Shown: in pieces, positions 10,660 through 46,417 of the stretch
Position numbering within the stretch: the stretch's first letter is position 1
Layout of the letters: the number at the start of each line of letters is the position of its first letter
NCBI RefSeq assembly: GCF_030297015.1
Contig: NZ_AP028056.1
Location: forward strand, 2,180,939-2,244,938
Reading direction: 5' to 3'
DNA: 64,000 nt
DNA from: Brooklawnia propionicigenes
Lineage (GTDB): Bacteria > Actinomycetota > Actinomycetes > Propionibacteriales > Propionibacteriaceae
Notes under the pieces: generated by a model
What the model saw: only the letters and a program-made list of their open reading frames with translations
The model's database searches: none
What the model was told of the DNA's origin: nothing
Made by a program: the position numbers and the translations under genes

Positions 10660-11688
10660 TCAGCGCTCGATGATCTCGATCCAGTAGGCCCCCAGCCCGG
10701 CCGGGAAGGTCTCGATCAACGTCAGCGCCGAGTCGGCGTCCGGACGATACTGGCCGACGACCCGATCGAGTTCTGACGCCACCAGCAGGTCTCCATTGGG
10801 CAGCACCGCGAAACCGCGCGGCTGGGCCACCACATCGGAATGGGCAGTGACCCCGCCGAGCACGCCGTTGCTCGCGATATCGAGAGCCGTGATCGTCGCC
10901 CGGGTGCGCTCGGAGCAGTAGAGCCGGGTCTCGGACGCGTCCAGGTGCAGATCGGCGCCCCAGATCAGCTGCTCGGCGCGAGGATCCGCCCCGAAACGGC
11001 TGTGCTTGAGCCCGCGATCGGTCGGAATGCAGGTCTGCGCGGAGACGAACGTCAACTGTCCGGATTCGGCGTCGCGCCGGTAATGCAGCACCTCGCCCGA
11101 GTACTCGGTGTTCACATAGACCGAGCTCTGGTCGGACGAGAAGATGAGATGCCGTGGACCGCTGCCGGCCGGTGCAGCCACAGTCGGCGGATCCAGCGGA
11201 CGAAGCCCCTCGTCGGCGGAAACCGCGTACTGGGCGATCAGGTCGTCGTGCAGCGACACGTAGTAGGCGAAGGCGCCGTCGGCGCTGACCACGACGCTGT
11301 GCAGGTTCGGGTAGCTGATCGTCTCGCCCACCGGCGACAGCGAGCCGTCATCGGCGACGGCGAAGACACCTCCGACACCTTGGTGGTAGGACGCCCAGAA
11401 CAGCCGGGAGCCGTCGGCGCTCAGCTTCAGGTAGACCGGTGACCCGGGAGCGTCGGTGCGCCCGATCACGGTCGTGCGGCCCGACGAACGGTGCAGCTGC
11501 AGGACGACAACGCCGAACGGGTCGCTCGTCCCGGCGAAGACCAGGTCGCGTGCGGGGTCGACGGTCAGCGGCAGTCCGGGAGCGCCGACCTCGCTGACGG
11601 CGAGCGGGGTGAGCTCATCGCCGCTCAGGTCAAACGTGGTGATCGTGCCATCCTTGGAGTTGCCCACCAGCACAAGAGAAGAAGTCAT
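10660..11688 (-). CDS. Lactonase-family beta-propeller protein
   Basis: A 342-aa cytosolic protein built from repeated beta-propeller blades, with typical lactonase/YVTN-family segments such as VYLKLSADGSRLFWASYHQ, NLHSVVVSADGAFAYYVSLHDD, GPRHLIFSSDQSSVYVNTEYSGEV and DLHLDASETRLYCSERT. Relatives include 6-phosphogluconolactonase of the Pgl beta-propeller type and carboxy-muconate cyclase. A role in sugar lactone hydrolysis fits the neighbourhood but is not proven. It stands alone, convergent with the lacI gene upstream in coordinate order. Confidence 0.85.
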   Translation of the reverse strand: MTSSLVLVGNSKDGTITTFDLSGDELTPLAVSEVGAPGLPLTVDPARDLVFAGTSDPFGVVVLQLHRSSGRTTVIGRTDAPGSPVYLKLSADGSRLFWASYHQGVGGVFAVADDGSLSPVGETISYPNLHSVVVSADGAFAYYVSLHDDLIAQYAVSADEGLRPLDPPTVAAPAGSGPRHLIFSSDQSSVYVNTEYSGEVLHYRRDAESGQLTFVSAQTCIPTDRGLKHSRFGADPRAEQLIWGADLHLDASETRLYCSERTRATITALDIASNGVLGGVTAHSDVVAQPRGFAVLPNGDLLVASELDRVVGQYRPDADSALTLIETFPAGLGAYWIEIIER

Positions 11689-30342: not shown

Positions 30343-30418
30343 GCGCCTATAGCTCAGTTGGCAGAGCAGGAGACTTTTAATCTTCGGGTCCAGGGTTCGA
30401 GCCCCTGTGGGCGCACCA
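30343..30418 (+). tRNA. tRNA-Lys (anticodon TTT), element attachment site
   Basis: A full 76-nt cloverleaf: acceptor GCGCCTA pairs with TGGGCGC, D-stem region AGCTCAGTTGGCAGAGC, anticodon loop CTTTTAA (anticodon TTT, lysine), T-arm GGGTTCGAGCCCC and an encoded CCA. Mobile-element genes begin immediately at its 3' end, which is the usual attachment segment for integrases. Confidence 0.97.
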
Positions 30419-30691
30419 TTGCTCGGGCGACATCGGCTTGCGCGGACGAGGCTCGGTCTCGAAACCCATGAGCACTTGCGCTGTCGTGCTGAAGTACTCG
30501 GCGAGCATCTCGATCTCGTGCAGCTGGAACGGCTGCACGCCGCGGAAGCGCAGCGACACGGATCCTTGGGAGATGTTGAGCAATCGGGCGAGATCTGACT
30601 GCTTGAGGTGGAACCTCGCGCAGAGTCCGCGCACTTCGCCGCCCACTCGCTCGGCGAGCGTTTCTTCCTGAACCAGGTTCACGATGCTCAT
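30377..30691 (-). CDS. XRE-type regulator running into the tRNA 3' end
   Basis: A 104-aa protein with a helix-turn-helix (LKQSDLARLLNISQGSVSLRFRGVQPFQLHEIEMLAEYF, residues about 29-67). Its last residues, CAHRGSNPGPED, are the antisense translation of the tRNA-Lys 3' half, so the stop codon lies inside the tRNA. That arrangement is common where an element inserted in a tRNA gene borrows its C-terminus from the attachment site. Divergent from a second XRE gene; together they look like the control switch of the element. Confidence 0.8.
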   Translation of the reverse strand: MSIVNLVQEETLAERVGGEVRGLCARFHLKQSDLARLLNISQGSVSLRFRGVQPFQLHEIEMLAEYFSTTAQVLMGFETEPRPRKPMSPEQWCAHRGSNPGPED

Positions 30692-30800: not shown

Positions 30801-31052
30801 ATGGAAGATGCTGTAGAAGTGAGGCGACGGATCGGCGCGAGCGTCCGAGCTGAGGCCGCCCGCCGAGGCTTGCGACAGCTGGACATAGGCCTGCGGTTGG
30901 GTGTTAGCCAAAGCGCGGTGTCAGGGCGGTTCGTGGGGCGCCTTCCGTTCTCCGCGGAGGAGCTGGTCGAGCTCGCCGATTGGTTCGACGTGCCGGTCGC
31001 GCGCTTCTTCGAGCCCGTGCCCGGTGCACGGCCGGGCGGGGAGGTGGGGTGA
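30801..31052 (+). CDS. XRE-family regulator
   Basis: An 83-aa protein that is little more than a helix-turn-helix: VRAEAARRGLRQLDIGLRLGVSQSAVSGRFVGRLPFSAEELVELADWFDVPVARFF. It starts without a ribosome site 6 nt after a -10 box. Its helical organisation mirrors that of the divergent XRE protein, suggesting a CI/Cro-like pair controlling the element. The next gene begins at 31054, 1 nt after its stop. Confidence 0.85.
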   Translation: MEDAVEVRRRIGASVRAEAARRGLRQLDIGLRLGVSQSAVSGRFVGRLPFSAEELVELADWFDVPVARFFEPVPGARPGGEVG

Positions 31053-31053
31053 C

Positions 31054-32220
31054 GTGGCTGGTGCTAGCTACTACTTGGCGCCCGCTGGGTCAGTCACGGT
31101 CTCGAATCAGGTGTCTTTGGACATGTCGATCTCCGCGCTGGCGCTTGGGCTGCTGGTCTGGATCAGGGCGCGGCCGGCTGGTGCGTCGCAGAGCTATCGG
31201 GAGTTCTTGTCTCGGGGTTTTGGGGAGGTCGCGACGCGGCGAGCGCTGGTGGAGTTGGAGGCTGCCGGCTACCGATGGCGTTTCGTGGAACGGCGCGATC
31301 ATGGCCGGATCGTCACGGCGACCTTGTTGTTTGACCGGCCAGCTACCGAGGACGAGGCACGCGAGGTGCTCGAGGGACTATCCGAATGGCCTATCGGCAA
31401 GTGTCTGAGCAGTCGTCGCATTGACCGTGAAGGCGATGGTGGGCTGCACTCGGCGCAGCAAAGTGGCTTGTCGGACCGTGCAGAGGATGTGTCTGCACGG
31501 TCCGACAAGGGAAAACACGAACCGCAGCCGGCAGCTGAGCGTCGGCGTGAAACCCCTAGTGGCACCGTGCAGCGGTTTACCGAGGCGCGGTCATCCGTAG
31601 CACGGTCCACCGTGCCACGGTGCGCCGAGGCGCAACCATCTAACGATGGTTCCAATGGTTGGGAGACTGACGTCTCCCAACCAAACCAGACCACACCCGT
31701 GTGCGAACAGCGATCGTCGGAGTCGCCGCTGGACCGTGCTTTGCCAGCCGGGCCGGTCGGGTCGGGTCTGGAGGGTTTGCTTGAGGTTTCGGCCGAGGAC
31801 ATCGCTGCCGATGACTGGACGGTGTTGGTGGAGTGTCTTCCTGTCGGTATGCGACACGTTGAGCCATCGGCTGTTTCGAAGATCGCCGCCGCGTTGCGTG
31901 CTCGGCTTGAGGCTGGGTGGTCGTCGGAGGCGCTTCGGGCGACCCTGGCCGGCAATGCGCTGCCGCCGGCTGATGAGATCCGGAATCTCGCGGGGATCGT
32001 GAGCTATCGCATCGGCCAGACTCCGATTCGTCCGCCGAAGCGCCGGCGCCACGCGCCCACCTCGAAGGCCGCCGAGCCGGTGAGACCAGCGGTGATGCCG
32101 TTGGCGTTGCAGAAACGGGCAGAGGCCCGCTCTGCCGGTTCTCCGGACGCCAATCAGCCGTTGTCGTGGTGGTTCAGCCGCTACCCGCCTCAAAGTGCTG
32201 AGGGGAGCGAGCCGGCATGA
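31054..32220 (+). CDS. Mobile-element winged-helix protein with hairpin-bearing linker
   Basis: A 388-aa protein starting at GTG with GGAGGTG upstream. Residues about 20-95 form a winged-helix-like domain (MSISALALGLLVWIRARPAG, RRALVELEAAGYRWRF) seen in proteins of actinobacterial integrative elements. Residues about 125-230 are low-complexity and polar. The C-terminal part (VECLPVGMRHVEPSAVSKIAAALRARLEAGWSSEALRATLAGN) is helical. The DNA of the linker holds four perfect hairpins (31,467-31,682). It may bind element DNA at an origin; that is inference. Its stop overlaps the next start (ATGA). Confidence 0.75.
   Translation: MAGASYYLAPAGSVTVSNQVSLDMSISALALGLLVWIRARPAGASQSYREFLSRGFGEVATRRALVELEAAGYRWRFVERRDHGRIVTATLLFDRPATEDEAREVLEGLSEWPIGKCLSSRRIDREGDGGLHSAQQSGLSDRAEDVSARSDKGKHEPQPAAERRRETPSGTVQRFTEARSSVARSTVPRCAEAQPSNDGSNGWETDVSQPNQTTPVCEQRSSESPLDRALPAGPVGSGLEGLLEVSAEDIAADDWTVLVECLPVGMRHVEPSAVSKIAAALRARLEAGWSSEALRATLAGNALPPADEIRNLAGIVSYRIGQTPIRPPKRRRHAPTSKAAEPVRPAVMPLALQKRAEARSAGSPDANQPLSWWFSRYPPQSAEGSEPA
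31467..31682. repeat. Cluster of four perfect stem-loops inside a coding region
   Basis: Stem 1: 31467-31484 with 31492-31509, 18 bp, loop GGATGTG. Stem 2: GCACGGT/ACCGTGC, 31600-31615. Stem 3: AACCATC/GATGGTT, 31634-31651, loop TAAC. Stem 4: GGTTGGGAGAC/GTCTCCCAACC, 31657-31682, loop TGAC. The 9-mer GGACCGTGC or its complement occurs at 31473, 31495, 31600 and 31731. Confidence 0.85.
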
Positions 32221-33674
32221 GTGAGCATCTGGTAGGGCGGGCCTGGCTGGCCGATGTCGAGTCCACGGCGCAGCGCGCGTTGCTGGGTAGCATCGCATGG
32301 CTGTCAGACTCCGATGGCCGGACCCACACGACCACCGCTGCGGTGGCCCGCGCGGCGGGCATGTCGACCCGCTCGGCTCACGATCACCTGGCTGAGCTCG
32401 TCGCGGCGGGCTGGATTCGGATCGAGCATGTCAGGTCTGCTGATGGGCGCCGCCACGGAGGGTCACTGATCCAGCTGTCACCGCTGTTCCTGCCGAAAGA
32501 TCCCCACCCGGCAATCGTGGCCGCGTCACAATTGCCGGGTGACGACAGGCCGAGCGTGGTGCCGTTCACAGCGGAGCGGATCGGTCCAGCGTGGGCGTGG
32601 CGAGCCCCCGTCGACTGCGCCGCACATCGAGTCGTGCTCGGCACGATGGCGTTGCTCGCCGACCACCGAGGCGTCTGCCTGGCACCCAGAACCACGATCG
32701 CTGCCCGGTCGCTGCTCTCCCGCCGTTCGACCGACCGCATCCTTCGCGACCTCGAGGAACAAGGGTGGATCGAACGGGAGTCCCGGCGTCGGGGACAGCG
32801 CGCGGCAGAGGCACGACTGGGTCTATCCCGCCAGTTCCTCACCATCGCAGACGCACCACCACCTGGCAGCCCGCGCTTTGAGGCCGGACCGCCGCCCAGC
32901 GCGGCTCGTCAACCCGTGGCCAGGCAGGCGATCGTCCGGGACGATGATGATCTTGCTGGGATGATCAGAGACGCCGTCGATGCTGGATGGTCGGGTGCGG
33001 CTGCTGAACGGCTTGCGGATGCTGTGATGACATGGTTGACGACACGCGCGTCCAGGCTCATCCGACGCAGGGTCGCGTTTACTGCCCGGGACTCGGTCGC
33101 TGATACCGCAACAATCGCCTGGAGAGTGCTGCGTGAATGCGCTGGACAGCTGATGGCAGCTGACCGACCGTGGGGGCTGCTGGCCACGATCGTGGCGGCC
33201 CGGTCAGCACGCGAAGACGAGACTGCGCGCGGCGTCGTCGACCTGGGAAAGACCGGCAAGATCCAAGGCTTTGGCCTGGCCGACGATTGGGAACTCGACC
33301 GCATCCCCTCGGCGCGCGACGAGCAGCTGAGAGGCAGATCCCTCGGGCTTGACGATATCGCTGACGCTCCCATCATGGACGACCTCGTCGTCCAGCTCGC
33401 CGCCAACGGTGTTGATCCCGGCCTGGCATGGCCGGTGCTGTGCCGATGCGTCGAGATCGCCCTGCATACGTCGCAGAGCCGCAGGCACACCGCTGCGCGC
33501 AACGACTACCAACTCGAGCTCCTCGGCCTGACCCCAGGCGAGGCATCGGCCTGGATGAACCTGGTGACTGGCACCCGTCGCGGAGGACAACAGGTCTCGG
33601 CGCTCCTGCAGGCAGGCATCCCGCTGGCTGAGGCGGTTCCTCCCGACTGGATCGCGGCGATCACGGCCGCATGA
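32217..33674 (+). CDS. Mobile-element protein with two winged helices
   Basis: A 485-aa protein. Two similar winged-helix units are visible: residues about 18-85 (QRALLGSIAWLSDSDGRTHTTTAAVARAAGMSTRSAHDHLAELVAAGWIRIE) and about 140-200 (HRVVLGTMALLADHRGVCLAPRTTIAARSLLSRRSTDRILRDLEEQGWIERE). The rest is helical without recognised motif. The layout, duplicated wHTH followed by a large helical region, resembles replication or partition initiators of actinobacterial plasmids, but no specific family is claimed. It overlaps the upstream gene by 4 bp. Confidence 0.78.
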   Translation: MSEHLVGRAWLADVESTAQRALLGSIAWLSDSDGRTHTTTAAVARAAGMSTRSAHDHLAELVAAGWIRIEHVRSADGRRHGGSLIQLSPLFLPKDPHPAIVAASQLPGDDRPSVVPFTAERIGPAWAWRAPVDCAAHRVVLGTMALLADHRGVCLAPRTTIAARSLLSRRSTDRILRDLEEQGWIERESRRRGQRAAEARLGLSRQFLTIADAPPPGSPRFEAGPPPSAARQPVARQAIVRDDDDLAGMIRDAVDAGWSGAAAERLADAVMTWLTTRASRLIRRRVAFTARDSVADTATIAWRVLRECAGQLMAADRPWGLLATIVAARSAREDETARGVVDLGKTGKIQGFGLADDWELDRIPSARDEQLRGRSLGLDDIADAPIMDDLVVQLAANGVDPGLAWPVLCRCVEIALHTSQSRRHTAARNDYQLELLGLTPGEASAWMNLVTGTRRGGQQVSALLQAGIPLAEAVPPDWIAAITAA

Positions 33675-34383: not shown

Positions 34384-34767
34384 ATGTCCCAACCCGCGCA
34401 CGGCTTGGCCGCTGTCACCGAGCAGGTTCCAGCGACCTCCATGGGATCGCTTTCCCGACGCCGAGATACCCACCGCGGAGGGGGCAATTTGGGCTCGGAC
34501 AACACCGCAGCCCCTTCGGACAACACCGCAGCCCCTTCGGACAACACCATCGGTCAAACGGACAACACCGCACCCCAAACGGACAACACTCAAAGTTTTG
34601 CCTTGTCAGCGAAAGAAACTAGGTTGAAGGTGCCGGCCAATTCAGCCCTCGAAGAAGTCCTCCTAGCGGCCTTCCCGGGGCCGACTGGGACTGCCGGAAA
34701 CAGCACCGAACGGCGAGCTCTCAACTCGCCCGCCAACCCGCTCAGCACGATTGCTGCTGGGCTATAG
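34384..34767 (+). CDS. Hypothetical protein with five heptapeptide repeats
   Basis: A 127-aa protein whose middle (residues about 38-70) is five heptads of the form S/T-D-N-T-x-x-x, coming from exact 21-bp DNA periodicity. No domain recognised. Either a real repeat protein or a reading frame over an iteron array; the ATG has GATAGGAG 7-8 nt upstream, which favours translation. Confidence 0.55.
   Translation: MSQPAHGLAAVTEQVPATSMGSLSRRRDTHRGGGNLGSDNTAAPSDNTAAPSDNTIGQTDNTAPQTDNTQSFALSAKETRLKVPANSALEEVLLAAFPGPTGTAGNSTERRALNSPANPLSTIAAGL
34497..34589 (+). repeat. Five 21-bp direct repeats (iteron-like)
   Basis: GGACAACAC starts at 34497, 34518, 34539, 34560 and 34581, a period of exactly 21 bp, two helical turns. 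Units 1 and 2 are identical over the full period. A short AT-richer stretch (CAAAGTTTTG) follows. Confidence 0.9.
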
Positions 34768-36113: not shown

Positions 36114-37238
36114 CTACCGCTGATTCGCCACTGCCGAGCTACGGCACTTCGCACGCGCGGCAGGCCACCCGGAAGGTGGTGGGCCGGCATCTGGGAGTAC
36201 GCCAGCCGGCGCTGTCATCCGCCGCGGAAAGCTCGCCGCCCGCAACGCGTCGAGATCCGCAGCGGTCGGCGTTGGCGCGAGCTGCTCGATGAGCGCGGTC
36301 TGGACGCTGCTGATCGGGACGTCCGCCAGTTGGGCGACGGTTCTGATCCACTCGGTGGAGTCGTCGGGGCGGATGCGGCCAGCGTCGCGCTTGGCCAAGG
36401 CCTCGACCATCAGCTCCGCCGTGACCGGGTTGTCTGGTCGACCCCACCGCTCGAGCTGGACCTGCGCGACCGCGACACTCATCGGCGTCGCGCAACGGAT
36501 CGCCCGATTGAGGATGGCAGGGCGGACGCTGGCCGGATCGTGACCGGCTGGCAGCTGGACGGCAAGCTGGGCCGCTCGTCCCTGGTCGGCGGTAATCTCC
36601 CAGGCATGCAGCAGGGCCCGCTGGCCGGCGGCGTCCGCATCGAAGCAGAACCACACCGGCTTGTCGGTGATGGCACGGATGCGAGCCAGGTGTTCAGTGG
36701 TCAGGGCTGTTCCGCACGCGGCTAGTGCCACGATGTTGGCCCTGAATTGGGATGCCATCTTGTCGACGGCGAGCTTGTCCATCGGGCCCTCGACAATCAA
36801 CGGCGTGGCGCCGGCCGCCAGCGCACCCCGGGCAGCGCCGAGCCCATATAGGGTCGACCGTTTCTCATACAATCCGGTGGCTGGAGTGTTCAGATACTTG
36901 GGCGAGCGGGTGTCTTTCGGGTTCGCGCGGCCCAGGAACCCGACGAGTCGGCCGGTGTGGTCTTGGACCGGCAGGATCAGCCGATCGCGCATCACATCGC
37001 GAAGCCCACGATCACCCTTGATCGAGACACCCGCCCGAACCAGATCGTCGGGGGAGTGACCGAGCGACAGCAGATGGTCAGTAGTGGCAGTCCAACCCGC
37101 CGGTGCGTATCCGATTCCGGCTTCGGAGATCGCTTTCGACAGATCGCGGTTGGCGAGGTAGTCGCGTACCCACGACTTGTCGATGCGTTGCCGGTAGAAC
37201 CGCTGGGTATGGGCCAGGACGTCGTCGGCGCTACCCAT
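36114..37238 (-). CDS. DnaG-like primase lacking the zinc-binding domain
   Basis: A 374-aa protein with the primase core: FYRQRIDKSWVRDYLANRDLSKAISEAGIGYAP, the catalytic-core YLNTPATGLYEKRSTLYGL, TOPRIM motifs LIVEGPMDKLAV (Glu) and WFCFDADAAGQRA (DxD). The CHC2 zinc finger normally at the N-terminus is absent. Likely primes replication of the mobile element when excised or after transfer. ATG 37238 overlaps the upstream stop by 8 bp (ATGGGTAG), which favours it over an ATG 18 codons earlier. Confidence 0.9.
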   Translation of the reverse strand: MGSADDVLAHTQRFYRQRIDKSWVRDYLANRDLSKAISEAGIGYAPAGWTATTDHLLSLGHSPDDLVRAGVSIKGDRGLRDVMRDRLILPVQDHTGRLVGFLGRANPKDTRSPKYLNTPATGLYEKRSTLYGLGAARGALAAGATPLIVEGPMDKLAVDKMASQFRANIVALAACGTALTTEHLARIRAITDKPVWFCFDADAAGQRALLHAWEITADQGRAAQLAVQLPAGHDPASVRPAILNRAIRCATPMSVAVAQVQLERWGRPDNPVTAELMVEALAKRDAGRIRPDDSTEWIRTVAQLADVPISSVQTALIEQLAPTPTAADLDALRAASFPRRMTAPAGVLPDAGPPPSGWPAARAKCRSSAVANQR

Positions 37239-37530
37239 CGGAATCGGTTTCCCGGTCTGGAGGGTCGACGACTGGAGATGTGGGCTCAGCATGGTCGTGG
37301 CCGGCCGACGCCGATGGTGTTGATCGCGGCTTCCTCGGCGCCTTCAGACCGAAACTGACCAGGTCAGAAGTGGCCCAACCCGCGCGGATCACCTTCATCC
37401 AGGCGCGCGTGGACGCGAGGTCCAGCTCGTGGCGCCGGCGGTCGATGTCCTCAATGTCAGCCGCATAGGTGCGTAGCGCTTCCATGCGCTTGTGCTGGAG
37501 TGATTGTGCCTTGAGTAGCAGACTCATCAT
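37231..37530 (-). CDS. Small helical protein coupled to the primase
   Basis: A 99-aa protein with a helical first half (LLLKAQSLQHKRMEALRTYAADIEDIDRRRHELDLASTRAWMKVI) and a disordered tail ending in acidic residues. AGGGAG lies 6-7 nt before the ATG. Its stop overlaps the primase start, so the two are translationally coupled; it may assist priming. No family recognised. Confidence 0.65.
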   Translation of the reverse strand: MMSLLLKAQSLQHKRMEALRTYAADIEDIDRRRHELDLASTRAWMKVIRAGWATSDLVSFGLKAPRKPRSTPSASAGHDHAEPTSPVVDPPDRETDSDG

Positions 37531-37655: not shown

Positions 37656-37874
37656 TTACCCATCGCTTTCTACCCTGATCGCAAGCCCCAGAGCTTTGGC
37701 TGCTTTGGAGAGCGTGGCCGTGGAAATATCGTCCCCTCGTTCAATTCTTGCGATAGTGGGACGCGAGAGTCCGGAGCGCCGACCCAGCTCTTCCTGGGAC
37801 CAGCCGCGCTCCTGGCGGGCGGCGCGCACCGCTCTACCCAAGACGGCGGATGTCCGCTGATCGTCCTTCATCAT
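37656..37874 (-). CDS. XRE-type regulator at the end of the hsd operon
   Basis: A 72-aa single-domain helix-turn-helix: LGRAVRAARQERGWSQEELGRRSGLSRPTIARIERGDDISTATLSKAAKALGLAI. Its ATG overlaps the hsdR stop by 4 bp (ATGA), so it is translated from the restriction-modification mRNA. Controllers of restriction genes are usually encoded ahead of the restriction gene; a coupled distal position is less usual. It could also be the antitoxin-like half of another pair, but no partner is seen. Confidence 0.85.
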   Translation of the reverse strand: MMKDDQRTSAVLGRAVRAARQERGWSQEELGRRSGLSRPTIARIERGDDISTATLSKAAKALGLAIRVESDG

Positions 37875-40800
37875 CTCATTGCGTTCGCTGGCATGGTGTC
37901 TGACGGATGCGCCTGATGGTGCTGGGCATATAGGGTGTCGGCAGTGATCTCGATGATCTCCTGCAAGAAACTGAGGTCGGTCATGTAGGACTGGATCTCT
38001 TGGGACTCCTGGCAGGTCTTCAGCACTGCTAGGCCGACGGCGTTGCTGAAGTCGGAGGAGGCCTTAAGCTGTCCTGCGCTGTTGTTCTTCGCCATCGCCT
38101 TGGCCTCCTCGTCGGCGTCGAGGAATCCCCAGTAGGTGGTGATGAACCCGGCGACGCTGCCATGGGTGACGTCGACGCCCTTGGCGCGGAACATCTCGTT
38201 CACGCGGTCGATCGCCTCCTCCAGCGGGCCCCGGGCGGGTGTGTTGCCACCCTGCAACTCGCCCTCGAAGCCGGGGAGCTTGATGCCGTCGTGGCTGCCC
38301 TCGGTCAGGGAGTGGTCCTCGTTGATGGCGGAGGGGACGAGCTTCACGCCGGAGAGCTGAACGCCTTCGAGGTAGCTGTCGTCGAACTGGTCCCCGTCCA
38401 TGTGGAGGTTGCGGGACAGCAGGGTCGTCAGGATCGCGCGCTTGTGGAGGCTGACGTCCTGGTAGTCGACGATTTGGCTGAGGAACTGCCAGGCGTTGCG
38501 GTAGCCGATGACATCGGCCCGGAAGCTCTGCAACGACTGCTTGAGCGCCTTGTCCTTCCTCACCCTGGCCTGGGCCCACTGGCCCTGCCAGCGGTTCTTG
38601 ATCGGCCCCATGGCCCTGGCGATGGCCTCGCCGCCTGCGTCAGTGAGGTAGGCGGCCGCGACGGCCTCCATCTCGGGCATGGTGTAGATGCCCGCGGTGT
38701 CGAGACGCTCCGCGAGGGTGATGAGCGCGTTGGGGTCGACGTCGCCGTTGACATGTGCGTCCGAGTAGTACATCTTGAAGTCTTCTTGCACGCTCGCCGG
38801 GGTGTTCTGGAAGTCCACGACCATCGGAGCGGTCTTGCCCGGGTAGGTGCGGTTCAGGCGCGAGAGGGTCTGGACGGTGGCGATCCCGGAGAGCTTCTTG
38901 TCGACGTACATCGCCATGAGCCGGGGCTCGTCGAAGCCGGTCTGGAACTTGTCTGCGACGATGAGGACCCTGTAGTCGTCCCCCTCGCGGAAGGCCTTGG
39001 GGGTGTCGCTGAGCCCGTTGAGCGAGGTCTCTGTGACGGTCGAGCCGTCGTCGGTGGTCAGGGAGCCGGAGAACGCCACCAGGGTGCGCATGTCCGTGTA
39101 GCCCTTCTCGTCGATGTAGTCGTTCATCTTCTGCGACCACCGGTAGGCCTCGATGCGCGAGCTGGTGACGACCATCGCCTTGGCGGTGCCGCCGAGCGCG
39201 GGCATCACGTTGCGGCGGAAGTGCTCGACGACAACGCGGACCTTCTGCGCGATGGAGGTCGGGTGCAGGCGGGCGAAGCGCACGATGTTGGTCACGGCCG
39301 GGCCGGTCTCGACCAGCAACTCGTCCTCGGTGCCCTCGATCTCGTTCTTGACGCGCAGGAACATGTCGTAGGTCGAGTAGTTGGTCAGCACGTCGAGGAT
39401 GAAGCCCTCCTCGATGGCCTGGGCCATGGTGTAGGTGTCGAAGGCGCGCCAGCTGCCGTCGGCGTCCTGCGTGCCGAACAGGCGCAGCGTCTTGGCCTTG
39501 GGTGTCGCGGTCAGGGCGATGAAGGTGATGTTGCTGGAGGCCGCGATGGCGGAGTCCTTGGCGGCGAGCAGCTCGTCGGCGCTGACGTTCTCGGGGTCCT
39601 CGACCTCCACGTCGGCCAGCAGCGCCTTGAGGTCACGTGCGGTCGAGCCCGACTGGGAGGAGTGGGCCTCGTCGGCGACGACGGCCCAGCTGCGGCCGCG
39701 CAGCTCGGTGGTGTCCTCGATCAGCTTCATGACCTCGGGGAAGGTCTGGAGGGTGCAGGTGATGATGTGGTCGCCCTCGACCAGTGCCCTCTTGAGCTGC
39801 GGCGACTTCGCGCCGGACTTCTCCCCGACAGTCACGACCAGGCCCTTGCTGGACTGGACCAGGCTCATGTCCTCGCGGATGTTCTCGTCCAGCACGGTGC
39901 GGTCGGTGACGACGATGACCGAGTCGAACGCCGACCTCGACTGGGCGTCCATGTGCCGGATGAGCCGGTGGCTCAGCCAGGCGATGGTCTTGGTCTTGCC
40001 AGAGCCCGCCGAGTGCCAGATCAGGTAGCGCCCGCCGGGGCCCTTGGCCTCGACGTCGGCGACGACGCGCTCCACGGCGCGCAGCTGGTGGAAGCGCGGG
40101 AAGATCAGGCGCCCCTCGCTCTTCTTGCCCCGCTTGCTCGGCTCGTACAGCGCGAAGTCCTTCAGGACACGCATGAACATGGGCCGGGCGAGGATGTCAC
40201 GCCACAGGTAGTTCGTCGGCGATCCGGTCGCCGAGGGCGGGTTGCCCTCGTGGCCGTCGTTGCCCTGGTTGAAGGGCAGGAACACGGTCTCCTCGCCCTC
40301 CAGCTTGGTCGCCATGAACACCAGGTCGTTGGAGACGGCGAAGTGGACCAGCGCGCGGCCAGGGGCCAGCAGCGGCCGGTTCCTTCCGGGCCTGCGGTCC
40401 TGCTTGTACTGGCGGATCGCGTGGTTGATGGTCTGGGTGTTGTCGGTCTTGAGCTCCATGGTGACCACGGGGACGCCGTTGGCGGTCAGCACGACGTCGA
40501 GGGTCTCGTTCGTGGTGGTGTCGAAGCGCACCTGGCGCAGGACGCGCAGGCGCACGGCGTCGGATGCCTCCACCACCTCGGCGAGGTTCGGGTTCGCGGG
40601 CGGGAAGGCGACCATCGGTCCGAACTTCGCCGTGGGCCGCCCCACCTGGGCGTAGGAGAACCCCTTACGCAGCACTCCGAGCAGGCCGCCCACCGGGTAG
40701 CCCGAGGTCGGGTCCATGAGAGTGTGCTTCGCCAGCTCCTTGGTCAGGTGGGTGAGCAGCTTCGTCTCAGCGGTCGCGCGCGGCGTCCCCGCCAGGTCGG

Positions 40801-40996
40801 CGGGCACCGCCTTCTCGTACTCGTCCGGGTACTGCGTCGCGAGCCAGTGCAGCACGTCCTGCGGCACCAGGGCGAGGCCCACGTCCCAGCCGGCGGCCGA
40901 CGTGCTGCCGTCGGCCTCGTAGAGCCAGCCGCGCTCGGAGAGCTCGGCGCAGAGGTTGGACTCGAACTCGAGTTCCATGAGTTGTGCGTGTCCCAT
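37871..40996 (-). CDS. hsdR: Type I restriction endonuclease subunit R
   Basis: A 1041-aa motor and nuclease subunit. The HsdR N-terminal nuclease domain (residues about 10-250) includes VRFDTTTNETLDVVLTANGVPVVTMELKTD, with the Asp...ExK pattern. The SF2 helicase follows with Walker A IWHSAGSGKTKTIAWL, the DEAD-type box VVADEAHSSQSG, TATPK, and motif VI-like VQTLSRLNRTYPGK. The C-terminal part binds the methylase complex. It translocates and cuts unmethylated DNA together with HsdM and HsdS. Its ATG overlaps the hsdS stop (ATGA). Confidence 0.96.
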   Translation of the reverse strand: MGHAQLMELEFESNLCAELSERGWLYEADGSTSAAGWDVGLALVPQDVLHWLATQYPDEYEKAVPADLAGTPRATAETKLLTHLTKELAKHTLMDPTSGYPVGGLLGVLRKGFSYAQVGRPTAKFGPMVAFPPANPNLAEVVEASDAVRLRVLRQVRFDTTTNETLDVVLTANGVPVVTMELKTDNTQTINHAIRQYKQDRRPGRNRPLLAPGRALVHFAVSNDLVFMATKLEGEETVFLPFNQGNDGHEGNPPSATGSPTNYLWRDILARPMFMRVLKDFALYEPSKRGKKSEGRLIFPRFHQLRAVERVVADVEAKGPGGRYLIWHSAGSGKTKTIAWLSHRLIRHMDAQSRSAFDSVIVVTDRTVLDENIREDMSLVQSSKGLVVTVGEKSGAKSPQLKRALVEGDHIITCTLQTFPEVMKLIEDTTELRGRSWAVVADEAHSSQSGSTARDLKALLADVEVEDPENVSADELLAAKDSAIAASSNITFIALTATPKAKTLRLFGTQDADGSWRAFDTYTMAQAIEEGFILDVLTNYSTYDMFLRVKNEIEGTEDELLVETGPAVTNIVRFARLHPTSIAQKVRVVVEHFRRNVMPALGGTAKAMVVTSSRIEAYRWSQKMNDYIDEKGYTDMRTLVAFSGSLTTDDGSTVTETSLNGLSDTPKAFREGDDYRVLIVADKFQTGFDEPRLMAMYVDKKLSGIATVQTLSRLNRTYPGKTAPMVVDFQNTPASVQEDFKMYYSDAHVNGDVDPNALITLAERLDTAGIYTMPEMEAVAAAYLTDAGGEAIARAMGPIKNRWQGQWAQARVRKDKALKQSLQSFRADVIGYRNAWQFLSQIVDYQDVSLHKRAILTTLLSRNLHMDGDQFDDSYLEGVQLSGVKLVPSAINEDHSLTEGSHDGIKLPGFEGELQGGNTPARGPLEEAIDRVNEMFRAKGVDVTHGSVAGFITTYWGFLDADEEAKAMAKNNSAGQLKASSDFSNAVGLAVLKTCQESQEIQSYMTDLSFLQEIIEITADTLYAQHHQAHPSDTMPANAMR

Positions 40997-42150
40997 CAGG
41001 CCACAGCCTTTCGTCCGGTCACCACGTCGGTGATGAGCGCGGCGCGGCGCTCGATGAGCAGTGATTTCAGTTCGGCGACCTTGGCCAGCATCGCGTCGAT
41101 CTTGCCGGTGACCTCGTCGAGGTGGTCGGCAATGCGACGTTGCTCGTCGACAGGCGGGTGCGGCACACGCCAGCGGCGCAACATGCCCTGGCTAATGTTC
41201 GGCTGTCCACCACCCGCAGCCTCGCGAATGATGTCGTCCCGCTGACCCCAGAGGGTGTAGTAGAAGAAGCGCGGATCGACGTCACGAGGGCTGGAAAAGG
41301 CGCAGCACGCCTGGTTCATCGTCGCATCCGTACCGAGCACGCCAAGCCGCCCGATTGTCGCACCATACATAGCGATCACGATGGCTCCGCGAGGGTGGAC
41401 GCGCAGAGACGAGACTGCGGCTACAGCCTCCTCAGTGACGTCCTGAAGCGTTGCGGTGACGAGGTTCTCTCGGAGTTCAGATGTGGTCACCCAAGGAACA
41501 CCGGCTCCACTTTCTACGTAATACCCTGACCCCTTAGGCGTCGTGCCGCTGCCAATGGAAGCGAAGAGGTGAGCTGTGGGAACGACGTTCCACCGAGCGC
41601 CGTCGTCGGCATACTGAGTCGACCGCTGCATAGCGGACATCCGACGAACCTCAAGCTTCTCCGCCAGCTCGTCCATCTTGGCGATCATCGCGTCGATCTC
41701 GCCGGTCTCGCGGTCGAGGTAGTCGGCGATCGCGCGTTGGGTGCCGAGGTCATGCGCGGTCACGGGGTACTCGCGAAGACTCATCCACTCCGCGCGCGGC
41801 ATCTTGACGCCCTTCGAGGCGGCCTCGGCGAAACGCACGAAGTTCCGACTGCCGACGATATAGGCGAGGTAGCGGGGCTCGACGTCAGCCTCAGGCCTAT
41901 AGACGTGTATGTCGCCACCCGCTGTGCCCTCGCGGTCAGCAAGCCAGTGCTTGGCGAGGTAGGGGCGCAACTTGCCGAACAAGACGTCACCTTCGACGAA
42001 GGGCGTCCCCTTCGCCGAGTACTGGGAGAGGTCGCCCTCAACGAGGCGCCCCGTGCTGGAGACCATGTCCTCAAGCGATACCTGGAAGTCAAGCGGCGCC
42101 TCAGAGTCAGAGACAAGCGTTGCTGCCGCCCAGAAGGGCATTGTCTTCAC
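40996..42150 (-). CDS. hsdS: Type I restriction specificity subunit S
   Basis: A 384-aa protein with two target-recognition domains and two conserved helical spacers: DLGTQRAIADYLDRETGEIDAMIAKMDELAEKLEVRR (about residues 150-186) and DEQRRIADHLDEVTGKIDAMLAKVAELKSLLIERR (about 333-367). This classic repeat sets the bipartite target. The first TRD starts MPFWAAATLVSDSEAPLDFQVSLEDM. GTG 42150 overlaps the hsdM stop (GTGA). TRD sequences are variable, so the recognition site cannot be predicted. Confidence 0.94.
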   Translation of the reverse strand: MKTMPFWAAATLVSDSEAPLDFQVSLEDMVSSTGRLVEGDLSQYSAKGTPFVEGDVLFGKLRPYLAKHWLADREGTAGGDIHVYRPEADVEPRYLAYIVGSRNFVRFAEAASKGVKMPRAEWMSLREYPVTAHDLGTQRAIADYLDRETGEIDAMIAKMDELAEKLEVRRMSAMQRSTQYADDGARWNVVPTAHLFASIGSGTTPKGSGYYVESGAGVPWVTTSELRENLVTATLQDVTEEAVAAVSSLRVHPRGAIVIAMYGATIGRLGVLGTDATMNQACCAFSSPRDVDPRFFYYTLWGQRDDIIREAAGGGQPNISQGMLRRWRVPHPPVDEQRRIADHLDEVTGKIDAMLAKVAELKSLLIERRAALITDVVTGRKAVA

Positions 42151-44069
42151 TCTTCGCTCACCCCCTGGAACATCTCGGCCAGCTCGCCCATGATGCGTTG
42201 CACGTCGGCGTCGATCTCGGCGAGCGGGCGCGGCTCCTCGGGCACGTAGAAGATGCGGGTGAACGGGATCTCGTTGCCATGTTTGGCCTTGGACTCGTCC
42301 CACCTCGCCTCGGGCGCGAACGGCAGCACCTCGCGGGCCATGTGCTCGTCGAGGTCCTCGCTCATGGGCACGCGCTCTGTGATCTTCCAGCCGTCGGCGA
42401 GCACGGGGTTGCCCTTGCGGTCCACGGCCGGAGGGGCGGTCTCGTCGGGCACGGCCATGGCCTGCATCACGGCGTCGACGAGGCCGACGGGGGCCTTGAG
42501 CCCGGCGGCCTTGGCAGCCACGGGCAGCCGCTTGGGGATCAGGTTCCACGGGGTGCCGTCGAGGTCCTTCAGGATCTGGACGAGCGCGTCGCCGAAGTCG
42601 CGGCGGCCGCGCAGGGCGTCGACCGCCTCCTCGGAGTAGCGGGCGGCCAGTCGGGCCTGCTTGAACACGGGGACGTCGCGGAACATGAAGTCCTGCGGCG
42701 TGAGGACGCGGGAGACGTCGGAGTCGGTGAAGGCCTCGTAGGCCTCGACGACCGCTGCGCGGTTGGCTGCGCTCATCTCGCGGCGCTTGTCGCCCAGCGG
42801 CTTGCGCATCGGCTCCCAGAGGCCGGACGCGTCGATGAGCTGGATCTTGCCCCGACGCTCGGCGGGCTTGTTGTTGTCGAGGATCCAGACGTAGGTCGCG
42901 ATTCCGGTGCCGTAGAACATCTGGGTCGGCAGGGCGATGATCGCATCGATGAGGTCTTGGTCGAACAGCCACTGGCGGATCGAGTTGGGCCCGGCATCGG
43001 AGTTGAACAGCGGCGATGCGTTGGAGACCACGGCGGCGCGCCCGCCGGTGGGGCTGAGCTTGGAGGCACAGTGGCACAGGAACAGCATCTGGCCGTCGGA
43101 CTTGCTGGGCAGCCCGTGGCTGAACCGGGAGCCGGGCGTCTTGGCCTGCTCGCGGACCGACTTCTCCTCGACCTCCCAGTCGCCGCCGAACGGCGGGTTT
43201 GACAGCACGTAGTCGAAGGTCTGGTCGTCGTAGAGGTCGGTGATGAGGGTGTCGCCCTGGCGGATCGCGTCCGGTCGCCCGCCCTGGATCAGCAGGTCGG
43301 CTTTGCCGAGGGCGTAGGCGGCGTCCATCAGCTCCTGGCCGTAGACGGTGACCTTGATGTCGGGGTTCAGCTCCTTGAGCGCGTCCTGGGCGACCAGCAG
43401 CATGCCGCCGGAACCGGCGGTGGGGTCGTAGATGGAGCGCAGCGTGTTCTCACCGGCCAGGGAGTCCTCGTCGGCCGAGAACAGCACGTCGACCATGAGC
43501 TTGATGGCGTCGCGGGGGGTGTAGAACGCACCGGCGGCCTTCCCCTTCTTGTCGAAGGCGCGGTACATGACGTCCTCGAAGATGTCGCCCATGACGGCGT
43601 CTTCGACGTTGGTGGAGCCGAGAGGCAGCGTCGAGAAGTGCTTGACGACGGCGTGGAGCCGGTTCGCGGCGGCGAGCTTGGCGACGAGCTTGGGGAAGTC
43701 GAAGGCCGTCCAGATGTCCGCGACGTTCTGCGAGAAGCCAGCGACGTAGCTCAGCAGCGACTTGTCGACGTTGTCGTCGACCGAGGCGATCGTCGCGAGG
43801 TCGAGGGGCGAGACGTTGTAGAAGCTTAGCTTGAACTTGTCCCTGACGGCGATGTCGATCAGGTGGGGAGGCAAGTTGCTGAATGCCTCGACGTACTTGA
43901 TGACCTCCGGCTTGGTGTCCTCCAGAAGGCACTCCAGGCGCCGCAGCACGGTGAATGGCAGAATGTAGTCGCCATACTCCTGGGGCTCGACAACGTTACG
44001 CAGGAACTTGTCGGCCGTGTCCCACACGATCCGGGCGGCGGCGGACGCGCGTCCCGACTCAGTTGCCAT
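42147..44069 (-). CDS. hsdM: Type I restriction modification methylase subunit M
   Basis: A 640-aa N6-adenine methyltransferase: an N-terminal helical HsdM domain (IVWDTADKFLRNVVEPQEYGDYILPFTVLRRLECLL), AdoMet motif I IYDPTAGSGGMLLVA and catalytic motif IV VLSNPPFGGDW, followed by SHGLPSKSDGQMLFLCH. It methylates the adenine in the site chosen by HsdS and protects element and host DNA. First gene of the hsdM-hsdS-hsdR-XRE operon, each joined by 4-bp overlaps. Divergent from mobC, with the oriT candidate in between. Confidence 0.96.
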   Translation of the reverse strand: MATESGRASAAARIVWDTADKFLRNVVEPQEYGDYILPFTVLRRLECLLEDTKPEVIKYVEAFSNLPPHLIDIAVRDKFKLSFYNVSPLDLATIASVDDNVDKSLLSYVAGFSQNVADIWTAFDFPKLVAKLAAANRLHAVVKHFSTLPLGSTNVEDAVMGDIFEDVMYRAFDKKGKAAGAFYTPRDAIKLMVDVLFSADEDSLAGENTLRSIYDPTAGSGGMLLVAQDALKELNPDIKVTVYGQELMDAAYALGKADLLIQGGRPDAIRQGDTLITDLYDDQTFDYVLSNPPFGGDWEVEEKSVREQAKTPGSRFSHGLPSKSDGQMLFLCHCASKLSPTGGRAAVVSNASPLFNSDAGPNSIRQWLFDQDLIDAIIALPTQMFYGTGIATYVWILDNNKPAERRGKIQLIDASGLWEPMRKPLGDKRREMSAANRAAVVEAYEAFTDSDVSRVLTPQDFMFRDVPVFKQARLAARYSEEAVDALRGRRDFGDALVQILKDLDGTPWNLIPKRLPVAAKAAGLKAPVGLVDAVMQAMAVPDETAPPAVDRKGNPVLADGWKITERVPMSEDLDEHMAREVLPFAPEARWDESKAKHGNEIPFTRIFYVPEEPRPLAEIDADVQRIMGELAEMFQGVSEE

Positions 44070-44348: not shown

Positions 44349-44744
44349 ATGGTGGAACCGGGCGGTCTGCGACGGTTGTCACGTCAGCGGGCCCGGAACG
44401 TGCCGGGCGGCCGGCCGTTCCGGCATGTCGTCAAGGCCAGCGAAGCGGAGGAGGCGCGGCTGGTCGTCCTCGCCGCCCGGCATCAGATGACGATCCCGCG
44501 ATTGCTGATGATGTCTGCCCTGGAACGCTCGGATGAGATCACCGCAGCGGACAAGCGAGAGCTGCTCACGGAGTTGTTCGTGATTCATCGCTTGCTGGGG
44601 AACATGGCGAACAATGTCAATCAGATCGCGAAGGTGGCGAACTCGACACGGGAGCTGCCGCCGCAAACCGACGCGGTGCTGTCCGCGGCCTGGTCCGTGC
44701 TGCGCCGCGTGGACCGTGAGATCGAACGGTTCGGTCTGTCATGA
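44349..44744 (+). CDS. mobC: MobC-type relaxosome accessory protein
   Basis: A 131-aa protein. A basic N-terminus precedes a ribbon-helix-helix-like segment (FRHVVKASEAEEARLVVLAARHQMTIPRLLMMSALE), and the family hallmark LLGNMANNVNQIAKVANSTRELP lies at about residues 82-104. MobC proteins bind oriT and help the relaxase open the strands. GGAAGGGGG precedes the ATG; the stop overlaps the relaxase start (ATGA). Confidence 0.9.
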   Translation: MVEPGGLRRLSRQRARNVPGGRPFRHVVKASEAEEARLVVLAARHQMTIPRLLMMSALERSDEITAADKRELLTELFVIHRLLGNMANNVNQIAKVANSTRELPPQTDAVLSAAWSVLRRVDREIERFGLS

Positions 44745-46417
44745 TCCCGAACGTGCGGCGCGGCCAGGACATGGTCCGGCTCATCAAGTATCTGGTGGGC
44801 CCGGGCAAACGTAACGAGCACACCGATCCGCATCTGGTGGCGGGCAGTTCGTGGCAGATGGCCTGGCACAGCGACGCAGAGCTTTCGTATCCGGACGCGA
44901 CCGCGATGGGCAAGGACTTGGAGGCTCCCACCAGGGCGTTCGATGTCGACGTGCCGCACGGGCATGTGTGGCATTGCTCGTTGTCGCTGGACGCTGCCGA
45001 AGGACGGCTGGCCGATGATGAATGGGCCGAGATCGCCGAGCAGTTCATGACCCGCATGGGGTTTGTCACCGATGACCTGGAGCAGCCGTCGTTGCGGTGG
45101 GTGGCAGTCCGTCACGGGGTGTCGAGCAACGGCAACGACCATATTCATCTGGCGGTCAACCTCGTCCACGAGGACGGCTCGGTCGCCGATGTCTTTCGGG
45201 ACTGGAAGCGCGCCCAGTCGGCATGCCGCGAGCTCGAGGCACAGCACGGTCTTCGGCAAGTGGGCATGAATGGACGCTCGTGTATCGGGTACAAGCCCGG
45301 CGAGATCGAGGCCGAGGCCCGCCGCAGAGCCCGTGCTGCACATACGCAGGCACACGAGACTGGACGAGAGCAGCGCGCCTGGGACGAGATCCCGAAGGCT
45401 GAGCGGCACGCGATCGTCGCGCACTACCGGCCGGCTGAGGTGGTGCGGTGGACGCTGGCCCGGCAGGTGCGGGCGGCGGCTACGGCGGCGGCTGATGAGG
45501 GGGAGTTCGTGCGCCGGGTTCGCCGGCAGGGTTTGTTGATCAGGCCGCGGTTCGCCCGTGGCACCCAGGATGTCGTGGTCGGCTACCGGGTGGCGGCGCG
45601 TCCCCGGTACGGTGAGCGTCCGATCTGGTTCGGCGGTGGCCACCTCGCCCATGATCTGACGCTGCCCCGGTTACGGGAGGCGTGGCCGGATACACCCCAA
45701 GCCAGTTTGGCTGCGTCGGCGGAATGGCGTGCCGCCTGGCGTGGCATCAGGGTCGCGGCCCCGGGACGCGAAACCCGCGAACCCGCACCCGACCTGCCCC
45801 AGCAGCTGACCGCCGACCTCGACGCCATGCGCGCACAGCTGCACGCGATTCCACCCAATGACCTGGCCGGGTGGGGCCGAGCAGCGGGGCAGGTGTCGGG
45901 CGCGTTGTCGGCGTGGTCAGTGACCACCGAACCCACCCCAGGCCCGTTGGCGCAGGCCGCGGACGCGATCGCCCGCTCGGCCGAACTGCGTCGCCCGCCG
46001 CTGCCGCGACCGGACCGCGTCCCCGGGATGTCGTCGATCGCCGGGCTGATACTGGCCGGAGTCGGGAAGGGACGCAAGACCCAGGAGATGCTCACCCAAA
46101 CACTCCTGTTGCGGCAGTTGCTCGCCCTCGGTAGGGCGGCCGCGGAGGCGCACCAGGCGGTGGGGGAGCTGCGTCGGGCTGAGCAGATCAACCATGCCCT
46201 GAACGCGCGGCTGGCGCCGATGCTGCGGCAGTTGGAGGCATCCATGCCGTCAGTGCACGGCACCGATCCGGCGCGGGCGGCAAGTGATCAACAGCAGGTG
46301 GTGGCCGCATCGTTCGCCCAACCGGCCGGATCAGTGATCCCACCCAGCCTGCCCACACCACCGCCGGGGCGGCCGGCTGAGCGTACGACCCGGGCGGGTT
46401 CCGGGATCGAGCGATAG
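44741..46417 (+). CDS. MOBP-like relaxase/mobilisation nuclease
   Basis: A 558-aa relaxase. Motif I carries the probable nicking tyrosine in LIKYLVGPGKRNEHTDP (Tyr17). The metal-binding motif is VRHGVSSNGNDHIHLAVNLV with His125, His134 and His136. Next comes RDWKRAQSACRELEAQHGL. The C-terminal half is helical without a helicase domain, as usual in this actinobacterial group. It would nick the oriT candidate at 44,235-44,308 and pilot the strand to the coupling protein. Confidence 0.93.
   Translation: MIPNVRRGQDMVRLIKYLVGPGKRNEHTDPHLVAGSSWQMAWHSDAELSYPDATAMGKDLEAPTRAFDVDVPHGHVWHCSLSLDAAEGRLADDEWAEIAEQFMTRMGFVTDDLEQPSLRWVAVRHGVSSNGNDHIHLAVNLVHEDGSVADVFRDWKRAQSACRELEAQHGLRQVGMNGRSCIGYKPGEIEAEARRRARAAHTQAHETGREQRAWDEIPKAERHAIVAHYRPAEVVRWTLARQVRAAATAAADEGEFVRRVRRQGLLIRPRFARGTQDVVVGYRVAARPRYGERPIWFGGGHLAHDLTLPRLREAWPDTPQASLAASAEWRAAWRGIRVAAPGRETREPAPDLPQQLTADLDAMRAQLHAIPPNDLAGWGRAAGQVSGALSAWSVTTEPTPGPLAQAADAIARSAELRRPPLPRPDRVPGMSSIAGLILAGVGKGRKTQEMLTQTLLLRQLLALGRAAAEAHQAVGELRRAEQINHALNARLAPMLRQLEASMPSVHGTDPARAASDQQQVVAASFAQPAGSVIPPSLPTPPPGRPAERTTRAGSGIER

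Follow-up and report, generated by a model that had tools for sequence, protein, structure and literature searches.

Sequence comparison places a probable replication origin at positions 31467–31700 of a 64-kb stretch of Brooklawnia propionicigenes DNA (contig NZ_AP028056.1; hereafter the window), which is held in a 3.21-Mb, single-contig genome. The segment belongs to an integrative conjugative element (ICE) and lies within the linker-coding region of the putative initiator gene that the element itself carries (31054–32220), an arrangement that would be lambda-like in plan. A sequence-only reading of the window had suggested either a hidden origin or a regulatory RNA within this winged-helix gene. 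The former is favored by the codon phases of the repeats, the family to which the gene product appears to belong, the same placement of repeats in distant relatives, and a plausibly replicating element; the longest "hairpin" and the stem at 31600, however, are better described as dyads.

Repeats and Hairpins in the Linker

The gene and the elements within its linker-coding region are as follows.

31054–32220, plus strand: initiator-like gene, 388 aa, GTG start, encoding an N-terminal winged helix-turn-helix (wHTH)-like domain, a repeat-bearing linker, and a C-terminal domain
31467–31481, plus strand: putative iteron 1, CTTGTCGGACCGTGC, codon phase 2
31495–31509, minus strand: putative iteron 2, inverted, CTTGTCGGACCGTGC, codon phase 0; with iteron 1 it makes up the 18-bp inverted repeat 31467–31509
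31556–31570, plus strand: putative iteron 3, CTAGTGGCACCGTGC, codon phase 1, in the context GAAACCCCTAGTGG from 31549; similar words occur in distant relatives
31600–31615, no strand assigned: dyad of the iteron core, GCACGGT-CC-ACCGTGC, with 7-bp arms and a 2-nt spacer
31634–31651, plus strand: hairpin A, AACCATC-TAAC-GATGGTT, 7-bp perfect stem, 4-nt loop
31656–31683, plus strand: hairpin B, TGGTTGGGAGAC-TGAC-GTCTCCCAACCA, 12-bp stem, 4-nt loop
31684–31698, plus strand: A/C-rich tract AACCAGACCACACCC directly after hairpin B, with counterpart tracts in relatives; a role is presumed
31731–31739, plus strand: isolated iteron core, GGACCGTGC

The 18-bp perfect stem with a 7-nt loop noted in the sequence-only reading is found exactly at 31467–31509 and is the longest perfect stem (loop 3–10) in the window. 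The recurrent 9-mer is also as described there: GGACCGTGC or its complement occurs at 31473, 31495, 31600, and 31731, and ACCGTGC is present at 31564 and 31609 as well; one further copy of the 9-mer lies far off, at 56910. Three shorter stems had been given as 7, 7, and 11 bp. The one at 31634–31651 is exact, the longest is in fact 12 bp, and the one at 31600–31615, whose arms are 2 nt apart, is a dyad and not an ordinary hairpin.

A larger unit of 15 bp, CTWGTSGNACCGTGC, has exactly three copies in the 3.2-Mb genome, at 31467 (+), 31495 (−), and 31556 (+), all within 104 bp. These copies sit in three different codon phases, so that no single peptide accounts for the repeat. The 18-bp "hairpin" is more likely a pair of these 15-bp iterons facing each other, which would be putative initiator-binding sites.

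The linker was compared with two nulls of 5000 recodings each, one in which the protein is kept and the gene's synonymous codons are permuted, and a second in which codons are resampled by codon usage. A longest stem of at least 18 bp was obtained in 0/5000 permuted and 0/5000 resampled sequences, and at least six copies of ACCGTGC or its complement in 0/5000 of either kind. A summed stem length of at least 37 was reached in 0/5000 and 2/5000, and three or more stems of at least 7 bp in 42/5000 and 176/5000, respectively. Folding of 31460–31710 relative to shuffles gave z = −8.5 as DNA and −7.9 as RNA. The linker repeats and hairpins are under DNA-level selection that the protein does not explain, in agreement with the earlier claim that nucleic acid structure rather than protein is what is selected. 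The description of the encoded segment as a polar linker is likewise consistent with the absence of a Pfam domain at gathering score and of ordered structure in this region of a low-confidence AlphaFold model. Chance or codon bias in a low-constraint linker would fit the poor conservation of the peptide upstream of the hairpins (17/65, 27/68, and 36/69 aa relative to related loci L020, L018, and L019, respectively), but it is extremely improbable in view of the synonymous recodings, the conservation of the stems with a compensated change, and the recurrence of a linker hairpin in phage initiator genes (both below).

The Gene Product and Its Neighbor

The left end of the element carries two winged-helix genes, of which gene 31054 comes first; the second is the following.

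32217–33674, plus strand: winged-helix gene, 485 aa, two wHTH domains (Pfam HTH_36, 1.1e-14; PHROG phrog_270, 2.6e-14)

The 32217 product matches phage replication-initiation families directly (2.6e-14), and a gene of this type adjoins the first gene in all three related loci of two genus-mates, G001 and G005. The C-terminal domain of the 31054 product aligns with a distant O-type family over 84 columns (hhalign probability 98.6). In the three members of that family that were tested (L024, L031, and L032), the N-domains match PHROG replication-initiation families at 1.5e-19 to 4.4e-17, and L032 has a match to the O protein of phage mEp554 (2e-7). From this C-terminal homology we infer that the 31054 product is a replication initiator, the HTH match of its own N-domain being weak. 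Over residues 18–92 the AlphaFold model shows, at low confidence, a wHTH-like succession of helices and two strands.

Sequence matches to the 31054 product occur in 5/57 genomes including its own; besides its own, G001 and G005 give strong matches, and those in G018 and G020 are short and weak. Profile matches occur in 14/198 Propionibacteriaceae genomes, own included. Protein searches of viral contigs, plasmids, and genome contigs returned no relatives; the genome-contig negative reflects a limit of the method, as a DNA pattern later located related contigs in that collection, and relatives of the gene were taken from whole genomes. The L024 product, searched against plasmids, gave no match.

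Conservation in Related Loci

In the genus-mates, hairpin A is kept in 3/3 related loci (L002, L003, and L007), with a TAAA loop in L002, and a DNA pattern scan of the genome-contig collection finds it on three stretches of two contigs. At the position of hairpin B, L007 has ...GAAAC-TAAC-GTTTC..., a compensated G-C to A-T change, and L002 and L003 have GGAACC-TAAA-GGTTCC instead, with a different peptide. By this comparison, hairpins A and B are conserved as structures. Loss of the stems with retention of the linker peptide had been named in the sequence-only reading as an outcome that would speak against it; the tetraloop hairpins went the opposite way, L002 and L003 keeping a hairpin and changing the peptide, whereas the 18-bp stem is partly at odds with the claim, being absent from L003. 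The 18-bp dyad is kept in L002, where the iteron core in the linker also forms a tandem array (15 bp × 4.7), and it is altered in L007 (CCTTGTCATTGTG / CACAACGACAAGG, one mismatch).

Between the window and L020 (the L007 copy), 64/72 nt are identical in the hairpin block and 164/330 in the N-domain. For L018 and L019, the hairpin block is identical at 50/66 nt (76%), with 49% and 55% identity in the N-domain and 63% and 62% in the C-domain, respectively. The L007/L020 locus (G005:C166:6774–7824) shares its contig with a second related locus some 45 kb off. Its initiator gene is broken in two, with the C-part in a different frame from the 219-aa N-part, and its hairpins are intact.

Seven distinct linkers were read in distant Propionibacteriaceae homologues (L024, L029–L032, L054, and L056). 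These O-type genes have linker dyad repeats and a common C-terminal domain, like the window gene, and the three tested (L024, L031, and L032) have a winged-helix N-domain, as it does. In their linkers, CCTAGTS or CCTTGTS words stand beside dyads of other letters (GGTGACA/TGTCACC types; GTGAGTCCCAC/GTGGGACT), followed by a TATAAGGAAGAACC-like tract in place of the window's tetraloop hairpins. The CCTAGTS/CCTTGTS-type word reads ACCCCTAGTGGCACC in the window at 31552 and ACCCCTAGTGGGAGC in L030, and is similar in L024, L029, L031, L032, L054, and L056. A fixed word with a changing half-site in a poorly conserved linker is what would be expected of initiator sites evolving with the protein. The HTH gene of Bifidobacterium phage PMBT6 (L113, 2001–2957) also has linker dyad repeats as in the window, with different half-sites: its GGTGACA-CCCA-TGTCACC dyads are of the same type as those in Propionibacteriaceae loci L032 and L055, and initiator specificity is possibly common across genera.

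A Tetraloop Hairpin in Phage Initiator Genes

Hairpins A and B of the window belong to a class, defined in this analysis and termed TNNM, that comprises a perfect stem of at least 6 bp closed by a 4-nt loop T-N-N-A/C on the coding strand of the inter-domain linker. Among the 35 hairpins in the window with a stem of at least 6 bp and a 4-nt loop, six have a TNNM-type loop on either strand, and three of the six, one of them the 31600 dyad, cluster in an 84-bp stretch of this linker.

When viral contigs were scanned, the hairpin B pattern TGGGARACTRACGTYTCCCA gave 0 matches, and CAACCATCTAAMGATGGTT gave one, in the linker of a phage replication-initiation gene (L017), a single match that could be chance. 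Most named relatives of the L017 initiator come from phages that infect Pseudomonas, Salmonella, Xanthomonas, and other hosts. The pattern GGAACCTAAAGGTTCC (GGAACC-TAAA-GGTTCC) gave 27 matches, compared with 3 when the loop was permuted and the stem left unchanged (GGAACCATAAGGTTCC), a comparison that rests on one control pattern. Mid-gene positions in initiator-type open reading frames (ORFs) account for 21/27. When 15 of these 21 ORFs were run against PHROGs, 15/15 matched replication initiation, primosomal, or DnaD-like families; four others (L080, L083, L084, and L103) are tblastn relatives of L081, one of the phage initiator loci, and two (L097 and L101) have flanks identical to PHROG-tested ones. 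Six of the 27 matches lie outside initiators: L099 encodes an ATPase-type protein, L092 and L102 have the same peptide as L099 at the site, and L086 and L088 are without match. The hairpin of L094 lies inside a phage DNA primase gene (775–2994). The 27 matches have at most 23 distinct flanks, many of them related. The three permuted-loop matches fall in a QueE-like gene (one) and in ORFs under 80 codons (two).

Relatives of L081 were fetched by protein, giving 38 loci, 37 after L141 (a partial match) was dropped, and 31 after length and redundancy filters. In this set, whose first query was picked because it had the hairpin and whose members share ancestry, a TNNM hairpin with a stem of at least 6 bp lies at 0.40–0.70 of the gene in 21/31 (null mean 0.21, maximum 3; 200 synonymous shuffles); any 4-nt loop at the same place is found in 22/31 (null mean 3.94, maximum 9). 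The synonymous-codon null was used in place of a pair-covariation count, which is circular for hairpins selected by perfect pairing. The loops of the 24 linker hairpins in the 31 genes are TAAA (11), TAAC (6), TATC (2), TAGC, TGCC, TGAC, CTCA, and GAGA. The T loops are strand-polar, with TAAA/TAAC/TAGC/TATC/TGAC/TGCC in 22 linker hairpins and their reverse complements in 0, and the 11 hairpins elsewhere in the same genes have other loops, none of them TNNM. Stems at the same place vary (ggaacc, acaacc, agaagc, ggaaga, ggtagc, acactccc, agagagttc, atcacc, and ccgttcc). In 25 genes, duplicates counted, purine makes up 78% and AT 60% of the 45 nt that precede the hairpin, compared with 55% and 41%, respectively, over the gene.

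Sequence-specific binding of the conserved stems as double strands was rejected, since stems at the same place have no sequence in common. The free stem sequence makes a double-strand sequence reader unlikely, and the strand-polar loop indicates that one single strand is probably read; hairpins A and B probably act as single-stranded DNA.

The sequence-only reading had offered a regulatory RNA as its other possibility, which here would mean attenuation, translational control, or autogenous initiator binding in the initiator mRNA. The RNA fold (z = −7.9) and the strand-polar loops, which are expected for RNA or for one DNA strand, would accord with such a role, but the searches lent the proposal no support and we consider it improbable. 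The Rfam search returned no family besides tRNA, the iterons are left unexplained, and no T run of an intrinsic terminator follows the stems, AACCAGACC being what comes after hairpin B (read by eye, without a terminator scan). RNA helices are expected to hold more G-T pairs than 6/175. The T-loop stems have G-T pairs at 6/175, compared with 2/167 for the A-C control, a weak test in that perfect stems are favored and duplicates counted; the rarity of G-T pairs leans weakly towards DNA rather than RNA.

For the relatives of L017, 54 loci were obtained, 53 after L198 was dropped and 32 after filters. A 4-nt-loop hairpin is present in the linker of 12/32 (null mean 2.62, maximum 7) and a TNNM loop in 6/32 (null mean 0.14, maximum 2). 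In this family the stem that carries TAGC and TGGC loops is also found with G-first loops (GGGC and GAGC), and the loop rule is therefore not strict. Many phage initiators among L153–L197 have GTCCGC dyads in the N-domain (nt ~61) and in the linker (nt ~340–360), the linker dyads preceding a purine-rich stretch that codes for a REEKRREE-like peptide. In a phylum-wide sample of phrog_1032 (29/30 loci, own genome left out), one TAAC hairpin was seen in an initiator-like ORF; the automatic ORF choice was in the wrong frame for many loci, and the sample thus yields no rate. The ORF in question (L218, Actinomycetota genome G533) encodes an O-like initiator and has dyad repeats followed by cgctcgtc-TAAC-gacgagcg at 0.51 of its length. 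A universal hairpin in O-type genes was rejected: among 16 named-phage genes, a perfect stem of at least 6 bp with a TNNM loop is present in one, that of Paracoccus phage Pkon1 (loop TATC), and absent from those of lambda, epsilon15, phiPSA1, mEp554, PMBT6, CP2 (a gene that runs off the end of the record), BUCT711, Dardanus, Rac, Olaya, Marvin, Babsiella, Bcep176, phiAX1, and BR233a. The TNNM hairpin is recurrent in initiator linkers, not universal.

A broader reading, which we regard as possible but somewhat doubtful, is that many temperate-phage intragenic origins and at least one actinobacterial ICE contain an undescribed free-stem hairpin with a constrained, strand-polar tetraloop (T-N-N-A/C, mostly TAAA/TAAC). 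In the best-sampled phage family it would lie just downstream of a purine-rich, AT-rich tract. The stem letters vary freely, so on this reading the hairpin must be recognized as a single-stranded DNA structure; its reader would be some factor that Actinobacteria and Proteobacteria share, such as primase, helicase, or RNA polymerase. No description of a tetraloop hairpin class in initiator linkers was found in the titles and abstract beginnings of the open-licence literature searched. If the free-stem, fixed-loop hairpin holds up, it would be a structural signal common to phage and ICE origins, with a reader open to direct search.

Comparison with Known Origins and Proposed Mechanism

In lambda and SPP1, origins lie inside initiator genes and combine repeats with an AT-rich tract (PMC5043065, PMC6316719). 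The oriLambda region in gene O (NC_001416; PMC5043065) is, like the window, a dyad-symmetric array of initiator sites in an initiator gene, with iterons annotated at 39034–39118 inside O (NC_001416). Lambda has a 40-bp A+T-rich tract (PMC5043065), which the window lacks; after this tract lambda has, by reading, only an imperfect stem with a GAAT loop, and O contains no TNNM perfect stem of at least 6 bp. The likeness to lambda is one of plan. The oriL of SPP1 in gene 38 also has initiator-binding repeats inside the initiator gene but differs in having direct repeats, an AT-rich DNA unwinding element, and a dedicated loader, gp39 (PMC6316719). Lambdoid Stx-phage origins have iterons within gene O, as in the window; the authors bring up the possible formation of hairpins by iterons, and the available part of their report describes no separate tetraloop hairpin element (PMC7466680). 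The window thus resembles lambda-type origins in its location inside an inferred initiator gene and in its dyad-symmetric repeat array in the inter-domain linker, and is probably a variant of lambda's plan with two tetraloop hairpins and an A/C-rich tract where lambda has its AT-rich tract.

A mechanism can be proposed on this basis. The N-terminal winged-helix domain of the 31054 product would bind the CTWGTSGNACCGTGC iterons, two of which face each other, and binding would distort and open the neighboring DNA. The C-terminal domain, the 32217 product, or both would recruit a helicase or loader. More speculatively, hairpins A and B may fold on the exposed coding strand, where their shape and their T-N-N-A/C loop would be recognized; the likeliest function would be to mark a site for priming or helicase loading, used by a host factor or by the DnaG-like primase of the element. 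If the proposal is correct, the origin of the ICE sits inside its initiator gene, the variable "polar linker" has a DNA function and not a protein one, and the linker of the initiator provides a rule for locating origins of uncharacterized elements and prophages from sequence alone.

Several observations weigh against an origin of this kind. In terms of the protein, the 31054 product has no Pfam domain at gathering score and no NCBIfam match, its best PHROG match is a weak HTH (E = 0.0064), its N-domain was left unaligned in the hhalign comparison with the O-type family, and its AlphaFold model, built from a four-row alignment, is poor (mean pLDDT 44). In terms of the DNA, the AT content of 31632–31710 is 46%, relative to 35% for the whole gene, and the clear A+T-rich unwinding tract of lambda-type origins is not present beside the repeats. 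Sites matching CTWGTSGNACCGTGC with one mismatch number 5 in the genome, relative to 12 for a reversed control; such sites are not enriched, and what is informative is that the exact sites are clustered. The absence of the 18-bp dyad from L003 has been mentioned. The L020 peptide is also conserved in the hairpin block (21/24 aa), so that DNA and protein constraint are inseparable for that pair, and three further TNNM-type hairpins with stems of at least 6 bp lie elsewhere in the window. Finally, a second candidate array lies 3 kb away, at 34495–34589.

This second array, a 21-bp tandem repeat of the TCGGACAACACCGCAGCCCCT type with 4.5 copies inside ORF 34384–34767 of the same element, appears iteron- or partition-like. 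Together with a ParA-like protein encoded near the right end of the element (by reading ORFs), it would suit an explanation in which the linker repeats are operators only, for partition or for autoregulating the initiator operon, with the true origin lying somewhere else, for example at this array. In one related element (L012), a different 21-bp unit occurs twice, at 11472–11514, about 2.2 kb after the second gene. We consider this explanation improbable, since the three related loci have no comparable multi-copy array after the second gene (~3 to 7 kb searched in each) and keep the linker repeats, and since phage arrays at this position are origins, as in lambda and SPP1 (PMC5043065, PMC6316719).

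A further alternative divides the functions, the hairpins being a single-strand origin for second-strand synthesis after conjugation or in rolling-circle replication, and the iterons serving initiator-operon autoregulation. The relaxase and transfer genes of the element and the DNA fold (z = −8.5) agree with it, and the sso1 of ICEBs1 consists of stem-loops on a conjugative element that are active as a single strand (PMC4595007). That likeness is by description only; sso1 differs in resembling plasmid sso sequences, and the available part of that report does not put it inside an initiator gene (PMC4595007). A resemblance to the CS-6 word of rolling-circle sso loops was also considered, but the loops here are mostly TAAA or TAAC, and the literature searched listed nothing decisive. 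Phage initiator genes, moreover, have the same hairpin class at the corresponding place, and conjugation is not expected of phages; a single-strand origin seems to us rather unlikely, if less so than an operator array or a regulatory RNA. An intragenic origin on lambda's plan is the reading that we prefer.

The Element and Its Other Genes

A tRNA-Lys gene at 30343–30418 is the insertion target of the mobile element, and the 55-bp att repeat (tRNA 3′ half plus flank) has two copies with 96% identity, 44.6 kb apart. Beside attR, a tyrosine-recombinase-like protein is encoded by ORF L044:18922–19791 (by reading the ORF only, without a family search). With a tRNA att repeat, this ORF-read integrase, a relaxase, and transfer ATPases, the ~44.6-kb unit in tRNA-Lys is, by its gene content, an ICE. 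Its further features are as follows.

30376–30430, plus strand: attL, the 3′ half of tRNA-Lys (30343–30418) plus flank
G000:C1:2255852–2255906, outside the window: attR, the repeat of attL, 44.6 kb off
30801–31052, plus strand: small XRE-type HTH gene (HTH_3, 2.4e-5), directly upstream of gene 31054
36114–37292, minus strand: DnaG-like primase core (DNAG_N, 7e-26; Toprim; TIGR01391, 1.9e-46 from model position 114), apparently without a zinc domain
44741–46417, plus strand: relaxase of the element, MobA/VirD2-type (PF03432, 5.8e-13)
59575–61356, minus strand: coupling protein, TraG/VirD4-type (PF12696, 1.5e-31)

Family searches identified further genes between the att sites for MobC, a D12 methyltransferase, and a transposase, and the element also encodes a HerA-type ATPase with a score just at its cut-off. 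Type I restriction-modification genes lie inside the element at 37871–44069.

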